Shown: piece by piece, positions 4,968-29,200 of the stretch | How positions within the stretch are numbered: the stretch's first letter is position 1 | Layout of the letters: every line of letters begins with the position of its first letter | NCBI GenBank assembly: GCA_905235515.1 | Contig: CAJOLV010000013.1 | Location: 1-33,602 of the forward strand | Direction: 5' to 3' | DNA: 33,602 nucleotides | DNA from: an uncultured Bacilli bacterium | GTDB lineage: Bacteria > Bacillota_I > Bacilli_A > RFN20 > CAG-826 | Translations under genes and position numbers: made by a program | Notes under the pieces: model-generated | Seen by the model: only the letters and a program-made list of their open reading frames with translations | Databases searched by the model: none | What the model was told of the DNA's origin: nothing

Positions 4968-5091
4968 TGTGGAAAAAAGTATCCACATATTTATATTAAC
5001 TATATTTAATTTATTTATTACTAAAGTATTAACTAAATATAAATATATGGATAACTCTGTGGACAAAAAATAAGTGTTGAATTTATCCAAA
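4968..5091. other. Cluster of five near-consensus DnaA-box 9-mers with an AT-rich core
   Basis: Five 9-mers each differ by one base from TTATCCACA or its complement: 4968-4976 (TGTGGAAAA), 4979-4987 (GTATCCACA), 5046-5054 (TATGGATAA), 5058-5066 (TGTGGACAA) and 5083-5091 (TTATCCAAA). They flank a 58-nt stretch (4988-5045) with only four G/C bases, resembling an unwinding element. None is a perfect box and dnaA/dnaN are not nearby. It could be a replication-origin part, a DnaA-titration site or a DnaA-controlled promoter. Confidence 0.4.
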
Positions 5092-5106
5092 TTAACCCCA
5101 TAAAAT
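5077..5106 (+). promoter_or_regulatory. Promoter giving an almost leaderless transcript
   Basis: -35 TTGAAT (5077-5082) and -10 TAAAAT (5101-5106) are 18 nt apart. The expected start point (about 5112-5114) is only a few bases before the ATG at 5118, and no Shine-Dalgarno is present. A DnaA-box-like 9-mer lies in the spacer. Confidence 0.5.
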
Positions 5107-5117
5107 AGTGGCGTCCT

Positions 5118-5495
5118 ATGAGTAAGAAAACTGATTTAAAAAATGTGAATGATTCCCTGATTGAAGCTATAAAATCCCTTCCTAACCCCATGTTTGATAG
5201 TAAGCACAATCTTGAAATTTATATTGAGGGAAATGCGAGAAGCAATCAAACTAGAGTCGAACATATCGTACAAAAAAGGCACGATTTAAAAGTAAGAGAT
5301 ATCGAATCTGTGTTTGAAGGAATTAAAAAGTATTATTTGTATGTAAAAGACCCTGTATACAAAGATACTTTCAACTATTACATTGTTAGAAAAGGACAAG
5401 ATAAAGGGTTTATAAAAGTATCAATACAAATAGACCATAGAAACCCAAAAAGAGCATGGATTAAAACCATATATATCACTTATCGCATTAAATAG
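5118..5495 (+). CDS. Small unrecognised protein, possibly a BECR-fold nuclease
   Basis: A 125-aa basic protein without signal peptide or membrane segment. I do not recognise it with certainty. The order RVEHIVQKRH (about 46-55), a helical DIESVFEGI segment, then several beta-strand-like stretches (FNYYIVRK, FIKVSIQID, TIYITYRI) resembles the phage/toxin barnase-EndoU-ColicinE5/D-RelE nuclease group. That is a weak fold-level resemblance, not a family assignment. No antitoxin-like partner is adjacent. It stands alone between the DnaA-box-like cluster and the tandem RNA, with an almost leaderless promoter and no ribosome-binding site. The start is the first ATG after the promoter; no better one exists. 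The coordinates and reading frame are clear even though the function is not. Confidence 0.65.
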   Translation: MSKKTDLKNVNDSLIEAIKSLPNPMFDSKHNLEIYIEGNARSNQTRVEHIVQKRHDLKVRDIESVFEGIKKYYLYVKDPVYKDTFNYYIVRKGQDKGFIKVSIQIDHRNPKRAWIKTIYITYRIK

Positions 5496-5497
5496 TT

Positions 5498-5526
5498 TTA
5501 TCAACTTTCTAAAAGTTTGATATAAT
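5498..5526 (+). promoter_or_regulatory. Extended -10 promoter of the tandem structured RNA
   Basis: A perfect TATAAT (5521-5526) preceded by TGA makes an extended -10 element. A weak -35 TTATCA (5498-5503) lies 17 nt upstream. The predicted start is at about 5533, exactly where the first RNA copy begins. Confidence 0.75.
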
Positions 5527-5533
5527 ACAAATG

Positions 5534-5618
5534 TCAGAGGTGGAGAACCAGTGTACGACCACGACGCATTCCTTCGGGAATGGATGCAGCGTTCCGGAAT
5601 GTTAACTGCTCCGGCTGA
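5534..5618 (+). repeat. RNA repeat, copy A
   Basis: First copy of the tandem RNA domain. It has the shared 34-nt 5' block (5534-5567), a TTCG-capped variable hairpin (5567-5582), the shared GATGCAGCG segment, and a second hairpin with the invariant 11-nt loop (5599-5609). Confidence 0.85.
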
Positions 5619-5627
5619 CGAGATTAT

Positions 5628-5713
5628 TCAGAGGTGGAGAACCAGTGTACGACCACGACGCGCCTTGATAAGAGGCGGATGCAGCGATCCAGGATGTTAA
5701 CTGCCCTGGCTGA
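5628..5713 (+). repeat. RNA repeat, copy B
   Basis: Second copy. It has the same 34-nt 5' block (5628-5661), a different variable hairpin (5661-5677) that keeps its pairing, and a covaried second hairpin (5689-5709) with the same 11-nt loop (5694-5704). Confidence 0.85.
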
Positions 5714-5729
5714 AGGTCTTAGTAAAGAG

Positions 5730-5750
5730 ATGTCCTGATGGACATTTTTT
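5730..5750 (+). terminator. Terminator of the tandem structured RNA
   Basis: The stem ATGTCC/GGACAT (5730-5735 with 5740-5745) and tetraloop TGAT are followed by a T run. It lies 16 nt after copy B. The remaining ~130 nt to the next gene are AT-rich with no clear structure. Confidence 0.88.
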
Positions 5751-5881: not shown

Positions 5882-8008
5882 ATGAAAAAATGTGTATTTT
5901 TGATGTGCGCATTGTTTTTAGGTGCTGGCGCTTTAGCTGGTGCTAATAGAGGTGGCGCTAAGGTCGCTCGTGCAGATGCGCCTAAAACTGATTTTCAATA
6001 TTTAAACAAAGTTTTAGCCGACTTTGATTTTGAAGATTTAGAACTTGGTGCTACAGATGTATTTGATGCCACAGGTTTTTGGAGCGATGGTTCAATTAAG
6101 GTTGTCGAATCGAATGGATCGAAAGCCATTGAATTTAAGAACGTAGGTGCTGCTCTCGGTGGAATCCGTAGTGATTTTTATGGAGATTTTGTAGATGGAA
6201 AAACTTACCGCGTTGAATTTGATAGTGTTATCGAATCAGAAACAGGCGTAGTTCAAATTGATTTCCATGAAACTAATTACTGGACAAGTTTCTTTGTTAC
6301 AAAGAATAGTGCTTATAAAAATCCAAGTGGCAATGACACAGTTAAAAACGTCCAATGGGTTAACGGGCATGTCACATTAGACATTGTTAGCAATCCCGGT
6401 AATCACTGGTTTAGCATTTATAATTCAGGTTTAGGAGAAAATGAAACCTTCATAGTGGATAATTTCAAAATCTATTCAGTAGAAACGGAAACTTTCCATC
6501 AAAATTTTGGCACAAATTTGAACCAAACATATCTCGAAAACTTTGCTTCATTAGAATCTGCGACATTAACAAGTGGACAAAAAGTTGCTCATTTCTATAA
6601 CAACAATTCAACAGCGGCATCTTGGCCAGTAATGTACTTTAATCAATTACCAGCTTTTGAAGCTGGGCACCAATATAGAATTGTTATTGGCTATGCCGAA
6701 GCACCAGTATACGATGAATATTATATTAATATGGTTGGAAACTGGGGAGGTCACACAACATTCTCAATTAGAAAAGATGGCTCACAATATAAAGACAATG
6801 ATGTTGATGATTGCACCTTAGTGCATTCTTCAGAAATGTTAGTTATTGATTTCAATTGTGTTGCCGCACTTTCTGAACAACAAATCAGATTCTGTGTTTA
6901 TGCTAATACTGGCACAGATATGGATTTCAAATTTAGTGAATTCACAATTTATGATTTAAATAAAGTTGCTGCTAGAGAGGAAGCAATTGCAACATATAAG
7001 GACACCGCAAAAGACCAACTCGATAATTGGAAAACAGCGCACCTTGCTGAATATCGCGAAGCACAACAAACATTAATTACTGATGATATTAGCTCTGCAG
7101 AGACAGCGATTGATGCTGCTGTTAATGAAGCCGCTGTTGATGAAATTGTGACCAAATTATTCGAAGACCTTGCAGAAATTAAAACTGCTGCTCAATACGA
7201 AGCTGAAGAAGCCGCTGCTGCATTAGAACAAGCTAAAACTGCTGCTAAAGCAGAATTAGCTAGTTATGTCGATGAAAATGATTATTATGAAGCTGAATGG
7301 ACAACCATTCAAACCATTATTAGTGAAGCTAATAGTGGAATCGATAATGCTTCCACAATTGAAGATGTTGAAAACTATGTCGCTTTTGCAAAACTTTTAA
7401 TTAATTTGGAATATACGAAAGCACAAAAAGATTTAAGAACTGCTATGGATAATGCTAGAAATGCATTAGACGCTACTGATCTCACAGCCTATCGTGAAGC
7501 AGAAAGAGCCCAAGTTAAAGAATTAATTGCTGCTGGTAAAGGCGCTATTGAAGCTTGCTCAACTGTCGAAGAGGTCGCTACTGAATTGGCAAACTATCAA
7601 GCTTTAATCGCTGCAGTTAAGACTGCTGCTCAATACGAAGATGAAGAAGCCGCTGCATTAGAACAAGCCAAAACTGCTGCTAAAGCAGAATTAGAAGGTT
7701 ATAAAAATGCTGATGATTATCGTGAAGCAGAACAAGCTCAACTAGCAACTATTATTTCTGATGGTAAAGTCGCTATTGATGCTGCTACAAGTAAAGCTGG
7801 TGTTGCTAGTGCATTAGCCGCTGCTAAAGCACAAGCCGATGCTTTAAAAACAAAAGCTCAATATGAAGAGGAAGAGGCTCAACCAGAACCAGAACAACCA
7901 GAAAAGAAAGGTTGTGGTAGTAGTGTTGTCGCTGCCTCTGCATTAATCTCTACTCTTGCTTTAGCAGGATTCGGATTACTCTTCTCCAGAAAGAGAAAAC
8001 AAAACTAA
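5882..8008 (+). CDS. Secreted surface protein: two lectin-like domains, helical repeats, GCGSS C-terminal anchor
   Basis: A 708-aa exported protein with a signal peptide (about 1-32). Two beta-sandwich domains (about 37-195 and 200-355) resemble CBM4/9-type carbohydrate-binding jelly rolls, rich in Trp/Tyr/Asn. Four helical repeats follow (about 360-665), each with a YREAE-like motif and AKTAAKAEL or AAQYE(A/D)EEAA segments; these are FIVAR-like stalk repeats. The C-terminus has an acidic Pro-Glu linker, then Lys-Lys-GCGSS (677-681), a hydrophobic helix (682-701) and SRKRKQN. This tripartite end looks like a sorting signal but has Cys in place of LPXTG. Strong ribosome site AAAGGAG. It probably binds glycans at the cell surface. 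The protein at 17851 has the same anchor and a similar signal peptide. No enzyme motif is visible. It stands just upstream of the sugar locus but has its own terminator. Confidence 0.85.
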   Translation: MKKCVFLMCALFLGAGALAGANRGGAKVARADAPKTDFQYLNKVLADFDFEDLELGATDVFDATGFWSDGSIKVVESNGSKAIEFKNVGAALGGIRSDFYGDFVDGKTYRVEFDSVIESETGVVQIDFHETNYWTSFFVTKNSAYKNPSGNDTVKNVQWVNGHVTLDIVSNPGNHWFSIYNSGLGENETFIVDNFKIYSVETETFHQNFGTNLNQTYLENFASLESATLTSGQKVAHFYNNNSTAASWPVMYFNQLPAFEAGHQYRIVIGYAEAPVYDEYYINMVGNWGGHTTFSIRKDGSQYKDNDVDDCTLVHSSEMLVIDFNCVAALSEQQIRFCVYANTGTDMDFKFSEFTIYDLNKVAAREEAIATYKDTAKDQLDNWKTAHLAEYREAQQTLITDDISSAETAIDAAVNEAAVDEIVTKLFEDLAEIKTAAQYEAEEAAAALEQAKTAAKAELASYVDENDYYEAEWTTIQTIISEANSGIDNASTIEDVENYVAFAKLLINLEYTKAQKDLRTAMDNARNALDATDLTAYREAERAQVKELIAAGKGAIEACSTVEEVATELANYQALIAAVKTAAQYEDEEAAALEQAKTAAKAELEGYKNADDYREAEQAQLATIISDGKVAIDAATSKAGVASALAAAKAQADALKTKAQYEEEEAQPEPEQPEKKGCGSSVVAASALISTLALAGFGLLFSRKRKQN

Positions 8009-8108: not shown

Positions 8109-9863
8109 ATGGATTATATTAAAACGAATCTCATCATTGACACTGATATTGGTGAAGATATTGATGACACTTGGGCATTGGTATTTTTACTATCTTCGCA
8201 ATTTGTTGATGTTAAACTCATCTCTGTTTCTACTGGAGATGTTAACTATAAAGCTACTTTAGTAGCAAAGATTCTAACTCTTCTACATATGACTCATATT
8301 CCTATTTGTTTAGGAAAGAGTTCTTCTATTGAAGAATATTCCCAAAAAGCGTGGCTAAATGATTTTAATTTGTCATCATATGAAGGGATTATTTATAAGA
8401 ATTTTGAAGAACCTTATCGTAAGGTTATTGATGAATCACAAAATATCACCATATTAGAGCTTGCTCCAATGTCTACATTAGCAAGTATTAAAAACTTATT
8501 AGAGAATCAACGCGTCAAAGTGATTGCAATGGCGGGATCAATATATCACGGTTATTTTAATAGCAAAGAACCATCTATTGAATGTAATGTTGTTAGAGAT
8601 ATAGAGGCCGCAAAAGCAATCTTCAATTCCAAAATTAATATAACGTTAGTGCCTCTAGATATTTGTGGTGACTTTATCGTTAATGGAGATAACTACCAAA
8701 ATATTTTAAATAGTAAAAATATTCGTTCTCGCATAGTTATTGAAAACTATCAAGTCTGGAGTAAGAAGTATAAAGGAAACGCTAATGCGTTTAATCCAAA
8801 ACAATCATCATCTATTCTTTACGACTTATTAGCGTCTTTTGTCCTTTTGTTCCCACAATATTTTGATTATCTCCATTTACCAATCACTATTACAGATGAT
8901 GGCCATACCTCAGTGCAAGGAAATAGAATGGTTAATGTCGCAATAAAAAAACATAAAACAGATGCGATGTTCCTCACGCTTGTGGAAAGAACTAATACTG
9001 ATATTGAAACAAATAAAAGAATTCTCAAATTATCTGTCGAAGGAATTTATTCTTTAACATATGTTTTACAAACCACTAATCCGACATTATTTGTGACAGA
9101 AGTAGGTTGGGAGCAAAGACATCATGGCTCTAATTTTGGTCCTTTAGAAAGAGATTATTATATTTTACATGTTGTCGAAAAAGGCAAAGGCGTTTTAGAT
9201 GTTGATGGGAAGAAATCTCCATTTAAAGAAGGGGATATATTCTTAGTTCCTCCACACACGAAAGTGGCCTATTCCGCAGATGAAAATGATCCTTGTTTAT
9301 ATCATTGGGTCGCTTATAGTGGGTTATTTGCTAATGAATTAACGGTTAAAACAGGTCTCACTATCAGTGATACTTATGTTATTTCACCAATCAAATTTGC
9401 CAGTGTGCTACAAAAGATTAAAGAGATGAATGAAATTGCCACTAATATCAGTGGTGTAGAATTTAAACTCCTCGGTCATCTATATATTTTGTTTTCTGAA
9501 TTATTTAATGAAAACGAACCTCTTGTATTACAAGATAAGAATCATGTTAATAAAGCAATTGAATATTTGCAAATGCATTATCAAGAAGAACTTCGCATTA
9601 ATGATTTAGCAAAACACCTTTTATTAGACCGCACATATTTATATCGTTTATTCAAACAACAAACTGGTTTAAGTATTAAAGAATATTTAATCAATTTAAG
9701 AATTGAAAAAGCTAAAGATTTAATCGCAAATACAAATCAATCATTACATGCGATATCTGTTTTAGTGGGCTATTCTAGCTATTTATCATTTTCCAACACT
9801 TTTAAAGATAAAGTGAAAATGACCCCTAATGTTTTTAGAAAAATACATAAACAACAAAAATAA
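8109..9863 (+). CDS. Nucleoside-hydrolase domain fused to an AraC-family regulator
   Basis: A single 584-aa reading frame joins an enzyme fold to a transcription factor. Residues 1 to about 320 are an inosine-uridine nucleoside-hydrolase-type domain. The Ca-binding motif DTDIGEDIDD is at 11-20, with an APMSTLASI (normally GPLTNLA) segment, AMAGS, and ECNVVRD in place of the usual EWN motif. Residues about 325-420 form a cupin AraC ligand-binding domain with a GDIFLVPPHT turn. Residues 479-584 hold two helix-turn-helix motifs of AraC type (YLYRLFKQQTG, VGYSSYLSFSNTFK). The Asp cluster is kept, so the domain could bind or hydrolyse a ribosyl-type ligand and report it to the DNA-binding part. 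No signal peptide, so cytoplasmic. Placed directly before the ABC transporter operon, it is the likely local activator. I do not know this fusion as a standard architecture. Confidence 0.88.
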   Translation: MDYIKTNLIIDTDIGEDIDDTWALVFLLSSQFVDVKLISVSTGDVNYKATLVAKILTLLHMTHIPICLGKSSSIEEYSQKAWLNDFNLSSYEGIIYKNFEEPYRKVIDESQNITILELAPMSTLASIKNLLENQRVKVIAMAGSIYHGYFNSKEPSIECNVVRDIEAAKAIFNSKINITLVPLDICGDFIVNGDNYQNILNSKNIRSRIVIENYQVWSKKYKGNANAFNPKQSSSILYDLLASFVLLFPQYFDYLHLPITITDDGHTSVQGNRMVNVAIKKHKTDAMFLTLVERTNTDIETNKRILKLSVEGIYSLTYVLQTTNPTLFVTEVGWEQRHHGSNFGPLERDYYILHVVEKGKGVLDVDGKKSPFKEGDIFLVPPHTKVAYSADENDPCLYHWVAYSGLFANELTVKTGLTISDTYVISPIKFASVLQKIKEMNEIATNISGVEFKLLGHLYILFSELFNENEPLVLQDKNHVNKAIEYLQMHYQEELRINDLAKHLLLDRTYLYRLFKQQTGLSIKEYLINLRIEKAKDLIANTNQSLHAISVLVGYSSYLSFSNTFKDKVKMTPNVFRKIHKQQK

Positions 9864-17850: not shown

Positions 17851-19929
17851 ATGAAAAATCTCAAGTTAGCTATTTTACCATTATTAGCATTAGGTATTGG
17901 CGCATTAATTGGCGCTAACCAAATCAAGAAAGCTAATGCTACAGATGAACAAGTTCCACTTGTGGCAGTAGGCCAAGCCTATCAGTATGATTTCGATGAA
18001 TTCGATGATGGTTCATTAACCCCAGATGAATTATATGCTGGCGGATTATTATGGGCTAGAGAGGATGTCGATTTAGCAATTCGTAGTGTCGGAAATGATG
18101 ATTCTCAGACAAAATATCTTGACATGACTATTGTCAGTGATGATGGCGGAGGATATGCTAGAATGCTTGGTATCGGTTCAAATGGAGGTTTAAAAAACCT
18201 CAAAGCAGGAAGAGCATATCAAATCTCTATGGATATTGATCTTTCTGGTGTTACAAGTGAGACAAGTGACCTCAATATTGAATATACTTCAGATGGTTTC
18301 TGGACTGGTGTTGGCATTCGTAATGGCGTTATGAGACCATTAGATGCAAACAATGTTCGTGATTTATATTATGATGCAGAAGGCCATGCTCTTTCATTTA
18401 GCTTTTTAGCAAGAGAACAAGCATTTCAAGAACCAAACGTTAGACCATATATTAAAATCACTATGTGTAATGCTGAAAATAGTGATGTAGTAACATTAGG
18501 TAGTTTTACAATTACTGAAAGCGCTACTTATAGTGAGTTCTTTTCCAATTATTCAGTTGGTACTGAAGCTCCTATGGATAACGTCTCCTCAATTACTAAC
18601 GTCTATAACGCCAACCTTGATTATGTCAAGATTGATAAAAACGAAGATGACAAACATTATTTACACATTAAACACAATAATGAATCTAGTGAAAGTGTTT
18701 GGAAAAATTTCTATTTCAATAGATTGACTGATTTGGTCGATGGCCATGTTTATCGTTTCATAATTGAATTTTTATCTAATGAACATAATTTCCAAGAAAT
18801 GTACGTTAAATATAATGATACAGGCGATGCATGCAATACATTTTTACCAAATGGCACAATTGCTAGTTGGAGTGCCCCAAGTGAATATTTAACTAATCCA
18901 CATTGGGATGGGACAACCTTGTATCAAGATATCCGCTTTACATCTACTAAAAATGCTGATTGGTGGCAACAAGTTGCCATTCAATTCTGTATCCCTGCAA
19001 ATACTGAATTAGATGTGAAGATTTCTAATTACCTTTTATTCGACCTCACTGAATTAGGTTCAACAGAAATTGAAGCAAGTGGTGCTGATAGTTTTGTTTT
19101 AGGAACTGAATATAGCAAGGATGGTCTAAATGTGAATTTTATTAGAGGAGAAGAAAAAGTTCCTTATGAATGGTTTGAAGTTGATTCATCTGCTTTTAAT
19201 AAAGATACAATCGGAGAATATGATATTACCGTCAGAGTTAGTGATGGTGTCTATAGTTTACAAACCACATATAAGGCCTCAGTTCATAATAACAATGCCT
19301 CTATTGAAATGAAGTCCAACCCTAATAAAGTGGAGTATCAATATAATGAAGAATTAGATCTCACTGGTGCAAAGATTAATTTAGTAAAAGAAAATGGTGA
19401 CAAAACCGAAGTTGATGTTACAGCAGATATGGTTTCTGGTTATAACAAAGAACAAGTCGGTGAGCAAACAATTACTGTTACATATCTTGAATTTACCACA
19501 ACATTTAAAGTAAATGTTTCTGATTATATTACTGGAATCGTTCTTAAATCTGCTCCAAGTAAAGTTACTTATGAAAAAGGTGATGAACTCGCTTTAGCAG
19601 GTGCTGTTGTTACAGTCAATAAAGCAAGTGGTGCAACAGAAGATGTTAATGTCACAGCCGCTATGGTTTCTGGCTATAACAAAGACCAATTAGGTGAGCA
19701 AACTATCACAGTGACATATGAAGGCTTTACCGCCACGTTTAAAGTCACAGTGAATGAAAAAGTGACACCTCAACCAGAGCCACAACCAGAACCTCAACCT
19801 GAACCACAACCAGAGCCAGCACCAGCTAAGAAAGGTTGCGGTAGCAGCGTTATCGCCGCTAGTGCCTTAATTTCTGTTCTATCAATCGCTGGAGTAGCCT
19901 TATTAACTCTTAAAAAGAAAGAAAAATAA
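17851..19929 (+). CDS. Second GCGSS-anchored surface protein with Ig-like repeats
   Basis: A 692-aa exported protein. The signal peptide shares the GALxGAN pattern with the protein at 5882. Two beta-sandwich lectin-like regions (about 35-215 and 218-400) precede an Ig-like domain (about 405-482) and two closely related Big_3-like repeats (483-558 and 559-637), both containing MVSGYNK(E/D)Q and GEQTITVTY. Then comes a Pro-Glu-Pro-Gln repeat linker (638-659), a wall-spanning type made by a 12-bp DNA repeat. The end is Lys-Lys-GCGSS (662-666), a hydrophobic helix (667-687) and KKKEK. It is in the sugar operon behind an AAGGAGGA site, so it is probably a glycan-binding surface partner of the glycosidase lipoprotein. 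Confidence 0.85.
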   Translation: MKNLKLAILPLLALGIGALIGANQIKKANATDEQVPLVAVGQAYQYDFDEFDDGSLTPDELYAGGLLWAREDVDLAIRSVGNDDSQTKYLDMTIVSDDGGGYARMLGIGSNGGLKNLKAGRAYQISMDIDLSGVTSETSDLNIEYTSDGFWTGVGIRNGVMRPLDANNVRDLYYDAEGHALSFSFLAREQAFQEPNVRPYIKITMCNAENSDVVTLGSFTITESATYSEFFSNYSVGTEAPMDNVSSITNVYNANLDYVKIDKNEDDKHYLHIKHNNESSESVWKNFYFNRLTDLVDGHVYRFIIEFLSNEHNFQEMYVKYNDTGDACNTFLPNGTIASWSAPSEYLTNPHWDGTTLYQDIRFTSTKNADWWQQVAIQFCIPANTELDVKISNYLLFDLTELGSTEIEASGADSFVLGTEYSKDGLNVNFIRGEEKVPYEWFEVDSSAFNKDTIGEYDITVRVSDGVYSLQTTYKASVHNNNASIEMKSNPNKVEYQYNEELDLTGAKINLVKENGDKTEVDVTADMVSGYNKEQVGEQTITVTYLEFTTTFKVNVSDYITGIVLKSAPSKVTYEKGDELALAGAVVTVNKASGATEDVNVTAAMVSGYNKDQLGEQTITVTYEGFTATFKVTVNEKVTPQPEPQPEPQPEPQPEPAPAKKGCGSSVIAASALISVLSIAGVALLTLKKKEK

Positions 19930-27622: not shown

Positions 27623-29200
27623 ATGAAATGGCGTTTTAAAGAAAATATCACTGGAAGCATTCCCGATCGAAAAACCGAACTAGAAATCATTAAACAGAAT
27701 TCGATATTTTCTTTTAACTTCGCCTGCTCTAAATCTGATTTAATCAGCTATTCGAATAAAAACAATGATTGTTTATATGATGCCTCAGTAGTGGAAGTAT
27801 TTATTGATGTTGGAGAAGATAGTTATTATGAAATCGAAGTAGCCCCTAATGGAGCGACATTCTTCGCTAAAATATTGAATAAAAAAGTCACTTTTATTGA
27901 AAATGACAACTTTTTCACTAGTGAAGTTCATATCGAAGGAGTGAAATATTTTGTCACTATTAAAGTGGATTTAAGTAGAGCAAAAGATATTGACCAAGTG
28001 AAGTTTAATGCTTACCGAATTGAAAAAGATAAAGAGGGCAAACAATCTTTATATGCTTTATTCCCGACTTTTTCCAATACATTTCATGTACCAGAAAAAT
28101 TTGTCTTACTTAATTCATTCTTAGCGGACGAGAAACTATTTGAAATATGTAATTCCTTTAATCTAGGCGGTTCAATTATTAATGTTTTCCCTTATGGGAA
28201 TGGCCATATTAATAAAACATATTTAGTTTCTACAGATAATAAGCGGAAATATGTCTTACAACAAATTAATAACACCGTCTTTCCTGATGTGGACGCCTTG
28301 ATGAATAATATCGTTTTAGCGACCAAGCATTTAGAAAATAAAGGTTTTGAAACCCTTCATGTAGTTAATTATATTGATGGGAAGCCTTATCTATATGAAG
28401 ACAATAAATATTATCGAGTCTATGACGCTATATTGAACGCCGTTTCATATGAAAAAGTAAGCGATAAAATAATGCTAGAAAAACTAGGTTTTTCCATCGG
28501 TGAGTTCCACCAAGCCTTCAGAGATTTTGATGCTAACTTATTAGTGGAGATCATTCCTAATTTTCATAATACAAGGCAAAGATATTTGAATTTATTAGAC
28601 GCTATTGCAAAAGATTCTTTCAATAGAAAGAAAGATGTTTTGAAAGAAATTGAAACAGTTAATAAGTATAAAAATGAATACGGTCGAATTGTCGATGATA
28701 TTAAACTAGGAAAAATCAAATTAGCAACTACTCATAATGACACAAAGATCAATAATGTCATGTTTGATTTAGTGACTGGTGAACCACGTTGTGTTATTGA
28801 TTTAGATACGATTATGCCTGGAAGTTATCTTTATGATATTGGTGATGCGTTTAGAGGACTATTTACTGGTGATAATGAAGATAACCCTGATTTATCTAAA
28901 TTAAATATGTCATATTCGATTTTTGAACATTTTATGAGAGGGTATCTCAAAGAAATGAAAGATGTCTTAAATCCATATGAAATTCAAATGATTCCTTTTT
29001 CAATGTTTTTAATTACTATGGAATGCGGAATTAGATTCTTAGAGGACTATTTAAGAGGGGATACATATTTTAAATGCCATTATCCAAAACAAAACATCAA
29101 TAGATGTCGTAGTCAAATCAAATTAGCGGAAGATATTTATCACAATATGAAAAAATTCCACGAAATCGTGGAAAATCTTCTTCATGAATTAAGTAATTAA
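27623..29200 (+). CDS. Sugar-binding (CBM9-like) domain fused to a NahK-like hexosamine kinase
   Basis: A 525-aa protein with two parts. Residues 1 to about 165 form a beta-sandwich resembling the CBM9/DOMON carbohydrate-binding fold (SVVEVFIDVG, YYEIEVAPNG). Residues about 175-525 are an aminoglycoside-phosphotransferase-type kinase closest in motifs to N-acetylhexosamine 1-kinase (NahK): nucleotide loop YGNGHINKTY (191-200), VLQQINNTVF (211-220), catalytic HNDTKINNV (371-379) and metal site IDLDT (392-396). It would phosphorylate a hexosamine or hexose released by GH36 inside the cell. The binding domain on a cytoplasmic kinase is unusual. Last plus-strand gene of the operon; it overlaps the opposite-strand PIG-L gene by 4 nt. 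Confidence 0.85.
   Translation: MKWRFKENITGSIPDRKTELEIIKQNSIFSFNFACSKSDLISYSNKNNDCLYDASVVEVFIDVGEDSYYEIEVAPNGATFFAKILNKKVTFIENDNFFTSEVHIEGVKYFVTIKVDLSRAKDIDQVKFNAYRIEKDKEGKQSLYALFPTFSNTFHVPEKFVLLNSFLADEKLFEICNSFNLGGSIINVFPYGNGHINKTYLVSTDNKRKYVLQQINNTVFPDVDALMNNIVLATKHLENKGFETLHVVNYIDGKPYLYEDNKYYRVYDAILNAVSYEKVSDKIMLEKLGFSIGEFHQAFRDFDANLLVEIIPNFHNTRQRYLNLLDAIAKDSFNRKKDVLKEIETVNKYKNEYGRIVDDIKLGKIKLATTHNDTKINNVMFDLVTGEPRCVIDLDTIMPGSYLYDIGDAFRGLFTGDNEDNPDLSKLNMSYSIFEHFMRGYLKEMKDVLNPYEIQMIPFSMFLITMECGIRFLEDYLRGDTYFKCHYPKQNINRCRSQIKLAEDIYHNMKKFHEIVENLLHELSN
29150..29173 (-). terminator. Terminator of the PIG-L gene, inside the opposing kinase coding region
   Basis: On the minus strand TTCCACG/CGTGGAA (29156-29162 with 29167-29173), loop ATTT, is followed by TTTTTT. 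It lies ~24 nt beyond the PIG-L stop and within the last codons of the plus-strand kinase gene. It has no T run on the plus strand. Confidence 0.8.

Follow-up and report, generated by a model that had tools for sequence, protein, structure and literature searches.

In type III toxin–antitoxin systems, antitoxin RNA repeats lie upstream of the toxin gene under one promoter, with a terminator between the two (PMC5086642), and in C. difficile the abiF RNA motif (RF03085) is the RNA antitoxin of a nuclease (PMC12373285). Enzymes of the BECR fold are metal-independent ribonucleases (RNases) according to the excerpted text of PMC5512222, and PBECR/MuF-C nucleases (PF18810, PF18812 and PF18819) of this fold include solo versions on mobile elements; that excerpt mentions no RNA partner. 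Here we analysed a stretch of 33,602 nucleotides (nt) from an uncultured Bacilli bacterium (contig CAJOLV010000013.1; the window), in which two tandem copies of a structured RNA follow a small gene for a predicted BECR-fold protein. Judged from sequence comparison, the pair would form a two-part toxin–antitoxin-like system, with the RNA holding the nuclease in check, a reading to which we give a probability of about 0.68.

The locus resembles the type III systems ToxIN, CptIN, TenpIN and AbiQ in its combination of an RNase-type protein with a pseudoknotted RNA and in the terminator after the RNA; some loci also have tandem RNA copies, most having one. It differs in that the predicted toxin is BECR/PBECR-like and not homologous to ToxN or AbiQ, the RNA unit is a cloverleaf of ~87 nt rather than a repeat of 34–50 nt, and gene and RNA have separate promoters, with the RNA usually downstream and sometimes convergent. 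An RNA upstream of the toxin gene was found only at three loci of the related skipping-rope RNAs (L271, L272 and L276). The system would therefore be type III-like in action but, by toxin family, gene order and promoter, lies outside type III. Like the AbiF/RCd22 system of C. difficile, it joins an orphan structured RNA motif, with two copies per transcript, to an adjacent nuclease-type gene, and RCd22 neutralises the toxicity of its nuclease (PMC12373285); the C. difficile system, by contrast, has a HEPN (Abi_2) protein, short abiF hairpin motifs and an RNA upstream of the gene. PADLOC returned only scattered weak matches, and we rejected assignment to a known anti-phage system.

A cloverleaf RNA family with a conserved pseudoknot

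The two copies in the window, each ~87 nt long when read directly from the sequence, share an identical block of 34 nt (TCAGAGGTGGAGAACCAGTGTACGACCACGACGC; 5534–5567 in copy A and 5628–5661 in copy B) and a common 11-nt loop (ATGTTAACTGC), and they differ in a compensatory manner in stems P3 and P4. This architecture was described in an earlier note on the same DNA and is confirmed here, with a third compensated stem, the outer P1 (GUCAG/CUGAC in copy A versus UUCAG/CUGAA in copy B). The promoter and terminator proposed in that note also hold: the extended −10 promoter predicts a transcription start at ~5533, the first base of copy A, and a hairpin with a run of T ends the unit. Its description of the unit lacked the upstream protein gene, the pseudoknot and the distant relation to skipping-rope RNA. 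Single-sequence folding gives a stability that is only mildly unusual (z = −1.76); as stability alone is unremarkable, the case for a structured RNA rests on comparative evidence.

A covariance model built from 14 homologues (R1) found about 126 copies in 66 of the 196 genomes of the GTDB family to which the window belongs, with E-values down to 1e-23. Outside this family almost nothing turned up when R1 was run on 296 genomes of the class and a broader model (R2) on 392 genomes of the phylum; weak matches in three genomes (G301, G416 and G142) were judged false. The window clade is essentially confined to one GTDB family, and its close named records are uncultured Bacillales and Erysipelotrichaceae metagenome-assembled genomes, among them RUG042.

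The homologues and covariation whose absence, according to the earlier note, would refute a functional RNA are both present, and the window RNA belongs to a real RNA family. Across 62 distinct sequences, 91.4% of cells are paired in the proposed structure, versus 79.1% in shuffled alignments and 27–48% when the structure is slid along the sequence. Two-sided changes occur at 22 of the 28 base pairs, pseudoknot included, and double-change cells number 241 versus 69 in shuffles, a level reached in 0 of 500. The pseudoknot joins the P2 loop to the P4 loop through four core pairs, each kept in 60–61 of the 62 sequences with 10–23 double changes (CAGU/ACUG in the window; CGGUG/CACCG, CGCUG/CAGCG and UGAGC/GCUCA elsewhere). 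As these loops pair with each other, the 11-nt loop is not exposed, which argues against the earlier suggestion of a small RNA acting through exposed invariant loops. Linkers are constant: in all 62 sequences 2 nt separate P1 from P2 and P2 from P3, and there is none between P4 and P1.

Two subtypes carry insertions (for example L034, L121, L126 and L143–L168), one with an additional hairpin-like element inside the P2 loop, the other with a long extended P4 that reads GGGGGAAACC...CCTTAATTAGGCTGGCCTGC; the pseudoknot seems to be kept in both.

In solitary and gene-paired copies alike, a −10 box occupies positions −12 to −7 ahead of the RNA, which is therefore predicted to have its own transcript. 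No Rfam family matches the window at curated cut-offs; this supports the earlier view of a separately transcribed structured RNA that lacks a strong match to a described family. Six tandem arrays were found, including that of the window, with copies 7–51 nt apart, and most loci are single-copy. Two aptamer-like copies per transcript had also suggested a tandem ligand sensor, or riboswitch. We consider this scarcely tenable, given that homologues mostly occur as single copies, that termination is unconditional and that no consistent same-strand gene lies downstream to be controlled; the only gene that recurs nearby is of the nuclease type, has its own promoter and lies upstream of the RNA, convergent with it or, in skipping-rope relatives, downstream.

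Linkage and co-diversification with an upstream gene

Match lists for the 196 genomes, compared by eye, place an R1 RNA next to 59 of the 60 best matches to the window protein, the sole exception being a frameshifted gene at a contig end. The gene lies upstream on the same strand of 70 of the 126 RNAs, at a median gap of 41 nt, and no other recurrent gene cluster was found beside the 126 R1 matches, solitary RNAs included. By genome, co-occurrence is 47 of 50 (hypergeometric p = 4e-26). Two divergent proteins adjoin divergent RNAs; one pair is convergent, its RNA having its own promoter.

RNAs without the gene are common (52 matches, 19 genomes), and some protein genes are broken beside an intact RNA; no genome was found with an intact protein and no RNA. 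RNA and protein distances correlate (Mantel r = 0.60 overall and 0.53 between genera; 0 of 2,000 permutations). Where a genome holds several pairs, its RNAs mostly follow their proteins: 24 of 28 are nearer to the RNA that accompanies the most similar protein from another genus than to the others in their own genome. The frequency of lone RNAs, the lack of lone intact proteins and the co-diversification together fit a two-part module in which the RNA can exist alone and the protein cannot.

The same linkage would be expected if the RNA itself did the work, as a regulator or scaffold, and the nuclease-like partner, rather than being a toxin, processed or matured it or bound to it as a cofactor. 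Consistent with this, solitary RNAs keep their structure as well as gene-linked copies (96.6% versus 96.4% of stem positions paired). However, promoter and terminator already define the RNA ends, the 19 genomes above have the RNA without any such protein, and PBECR domains are otherwise conflict effectors in the excerpted text of PMC5512222. We regard such a processing role as unlikely.

Adjacency to the gene, together with the convergent arrangement of three homologues or relatives (L254, L287 and L288), might also point to a type I antitoxin that base-pairs with the toxin mRNA. Predicted cognate RNA–mRNA duplexes are, however, no better than those with the mRNAs of other loci (mean z = +0.28; in the best tenth for 2 of 45), and the conserved, closed structure of the RNA leaves little of it single-stranded, so that antisense pairing seems very improbable.

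A predicted BECR-fold ribonuclease

The partner gene encodes a predicted BECR-fold ribonuclease of the PBECR/MuF-C kind. In a profile of 46 diverse homologues (A3), H49, H55, D61 and R91 are invariant and R41, L57 and T117 nearly so. A conserved His in the N-terminal helix region and a Thr/Ser in the last strand are both present, and the invariant His and the Thr of the last strand agree with the BECR active site as given in the excerpted text of PMC5512222; PBECR/MuF-C nucleases share this fold and these residues. Pfam MuF_C matches 11 of the 46 homologues (best E 1.7e-5) and PBECR3 matches 5 (best E 2.4e-4). An AlphaFold2 (AF2) model of the window protein has a predicted local distance difference test (pLDDT) score of 89, and its best viral fold matches are phage MuF-C, minor-capsid and nuclease proteins (probability 0.97–1.0). 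By sequence, no protein of the window type was found in the phages, plasmids and viral contigs searched, and a profile search of the PDB with the partner protein returned nothing.

Iyer et al. report catalytically inactive PBECR domains, perhaps only RNA-binding (excerpted text of PMC5512222), and the partner might likewise be an RNA binder with a lost or different activity, the pair regulating something else, such as phage genes, as a ribonucleoprotein. Against this, the invariance of H49, H55, D61 and R91 and the near-invariance of T117 in 46 diverse proteins fit retained catalysis, and we think it distinctly unlikely. A nuclease-type gene with a structured RNA, in several copies per genome, also recalls mobile RNA-guided nuclease-like elements of the OMEGA or HEARO type. 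We give this almost no credence, as the protein has only 125 amino acids, the RNA lacks a variable guide and BECR proteins are RNases that need no metal.

A Shine–Dalgarno sequence is absent from 34 of 35 homologous protein genes. The inverted repeat upstream of the gene in the window is long and AT-rich, with DnaA-box-like TGTGGATAA/TATCCACA at its edges, and another protein clade has a different palindrome (ATAAGACTNNGTCTTAT) across its promoter; either could be a tight operator. An apparent enrichment of DnaA boxes upstream of the gene (21 versus 4.7 expected) was set aside because it stems from closely related loci.

Skipping-rope RNA, a distant relative beside solo PBECR3 genes

Skipping-rope RNA was reportedly first described by Weinberg et al. 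in 2017, and we found no function described for it in the papers searched. It gives the best Rfam match in the window (RF02924; copy B, 26.3 bits, E 4e-4, versus a gathering score of 36.7), and the RF02924 model matches none of 19 homologous loci of the window clade. In the opposite direction, R2 recovers three genuine skipping-rope RNAs, each placed exactly (E 0.003–0.013). Plain membership was rejected, as the match is ~10 bits under the cut-off and other clade members are unmatched; with this and the weak reciprocity, we treat the window clade as a distant relative. RNAs above the RF02924 cut-off are rare in the window's family (1 of 96 genomes). A minus-strand match to the glutamine riboswitch (12.9 bits) was attributed to chance.

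Both groups have the cloverleaf order P1(P2,P3,P4) with conserved AGG..GGAAA and GAGAU-like segments, an AG-type linker of 2 nt, a P4 that is joined to P1 without any linker, a pseudoknot between the P2 and P4 loops, and a BECR nuclease as neighbour type. In fifteen skipping-rope RNAs, this pseudoknot has two invariant G–C pairs and a third that varies among C–G, U–G, U–A and G–C. The window clade differs in having a longer P2 loop, a shorter P1, additional base pairs in P3 and the P2-insert and extended-P4 subtypes.

We searched 149 genomes of the class with Pfam PBECR3, blind to RNA. All five solo PBECR3 genes recovered, one of them a fragment (L276), are flanked by an above-cut-off RF02924 RNA, which lies downstream in L269 (70.7 bits) and L270 (57.7 bits) and upstream in L271 (51.5 bits), L272 (44.8 bits) and L276 (50.3 bits). 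The solo PBECR proteins beside these RNAs exceed the Pfam cut-off. Among plasmid and phage homologues of the L269 protein, RF02924 is adjacent in 11 of the 11 loci with flanking sequence (these include two sets of near duplicates, L283/L284 and L287/L288); ten are above the cut-off and the other, from Azospirillum, scores 30.9 bits. The loci come from Priestia, Sporosarcina, Brevibacillus, Macrococcus, a Streptococcus phage, Fusobacterium (two), Azospirillum, Treponema, B. velezensis and B. subtilis (plasmid pTA1060), and thus span Bacillota, Fusobacteriota, Spirochaetota and Alphaproteobacteria. Three loci are convergent. This freedom in gene order and orientation argues for an RNA that acts in trans.

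Viral contigs gave a mostly non-specific pattern for skipping-rope RNA (6 of 30 loci scanned). An RNA after a phage MuF–PBECR fusion (L275) was not borne out as skipping-rope, and no skipping-rope RNA adjoins three MuF_C open reading frames (ORFs; L266–L268).

A probable RNA antidote to a nuclease

On the favoured reading, the RNA would be made from its own strong promoter and fold into a cloverleaf that P1 closes and the pseudoknot locks; it would most likely bind and silence the nuclease in the manner of the RNA antitoxins of type III-like systems. The nuclease, produced from a tightly controlled and nearly leaderless mRNA, would be an RNase toxin when free. In the window, two RNA copies per transcript would serve one gene, doubling the antidote per transcript. 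The comparisons above establish the structure of the RNA, the placement of the promoters, the genetic linkage and the co-diversification; from them we infer the nuclease activity, the direct binding of RNA to protein and the neutralisation. Skipping-rope RNAs may work likewise with their PBECR nucleases; as they show the same nuclease pairing, both RNA groups are probably antidotes to a toxic enzyme.

Several observations weigh against this interpretation. The window protein alone has no Pfam match and no annotation, and its clade falls under the Pfam cut-offs for PBECR and MuF_C, in which it differs from the described nucleases. The AF2 model has no significant match in the PDB, the best sensible one being BrnT (probability 0.72, E 0.26). 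Profile comparison with PBECR2/3 proteins aligns the His and the last strand at a modest 71.6% probability (E 3.5e-5). Almost one in two RNAs lacks a nearby gene, and no nuclease adjoins the skipping-rope RNAs that we first met in phage contigs; such lone RNAs suggest that the RNA may act on its own.

BECR toxins often cut tRNA. The layout of the RNA is tRNA-like, with a closing stem, a 2-nt linker, a D-like arm of 4–5 base pairs (bp), an anticodon-like arm and a T-like arm of 5 bp that stacks straight onto the closing stem, and with kissing D- and T-like loops. Substrate mimicry is thus conceivable: skipping-rope RNAs and the window clade could form one superfamily of tRNA-shaped antidotes that block tRNA-cutting BECR nucleases, with solitary phage and bacterial copies as decoys or orphan antidotes. 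We offer this extension only tentatively and think it doubtful.

If the antidote reading is correct, an orphan RNA family acquires a function. The nearly constant association with small BECR nucleases, observed across four phyla, would give skipping-rope RNA a concrete and testable role. The pair would also bring a toxin fold and an RNA fold that are both new to the small set of RNA-antitoxin systems, and its laboratory-tractable members include the one on the B. subtilis plasmid pTA1060.

Table 1 Features of the RNA locus and its upstream partner gene in the window
Feature	Coordinates	Strand	Remarks
Inverted repeat, 18 bp, arms 38 nt apart	4980–5053		Possible operator; palindromes upstream of most clade homologues; function putative
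Promoter-like sequence of the protein gene, TTGAAT-18-TAAAAT	5077–5106	+	~11 nt before ATG; very short or no leader
BECR-fold, ribonuclease-type protein, 125 amino acids (predicted toxin)	5118–5495	+	Family profile; AF2 model
RNA promoter, extended −10 (TTATCA-17-TATAAT, TG ahead of −10)	5498–5526	+	−10 kept before homologues
RNA copy A	5533–5619	+	Cloverleaf P1, P2, P3, P4; R1 106.1 bits, E 7e-23; covariation
Copy A P2-loop CAGU, pseudoknot 5′ side	5549–5552	+	Partner 5605–5608
Copy A P4-loop ACUG, pseudoknot 3′ side	5605–5608	+	
RNA copy B	5627–5714	+	Cloverleaf as in copy A; R1 99.2 bits; RF02924 26.3 bits
Copy B P2-loop CAGU, pseudoknot 5′ side	5643–5646	+	
Copy B P4-loop ACUG, pseudoknot 3′ side	5700–5703	+	
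Intrinsic terminator of the RNA unit	5730–5750	+	Hairpin ATGTCC-TGAT-GGACAT at 5730–5745, then TTTTT

Other genes in the window and at related loci

Just upstream of an elongation-factor-G-like gene and the RNA locus, a Fic/DOC family protein is encoded at 1782–2819. One ORF at 8109–9863 fuses an inosine-uridine nucleoside hydrolase (Pfam E 1.8e-26) to a cupin/AraC-type regulator (1.7e-18). The 525-amino-acid protein encoded at 27623–29200, in a sugar-utilisation cluster beside melibiase, has a C-terminal APH-type phosphotransferase and an N-terminal region of ~170 amino acids that lacks a Pfam match. Two large secreted proteins (5882–8008 and 17851–19929) have a common C-terminal tail, KKGCGSSV(V/I)AASALIS...GF/GV...KK, which looks like a cell-surface sorting signal.

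Three consecutive cow-rumen-1 RNAs (RF02946, 73–75 bits; L018, 2420–3111) lie ~0.6–1.3 kb downstream of one homologous locus. On the B. velezensis and B. subtilis pTA1060 plasmids, a Bacillus-plasmid RNA (RF01691; L287/L288, 2080–2135) follows the skipping-rope RNA by ~0.1 kb, and ~240 nt upstream of a phage skipping-rope RNA a 138-amino-acid ORF followed by a helix-turn-helix gene (L241, 3203–4013) resembles a HigBA-type pair.
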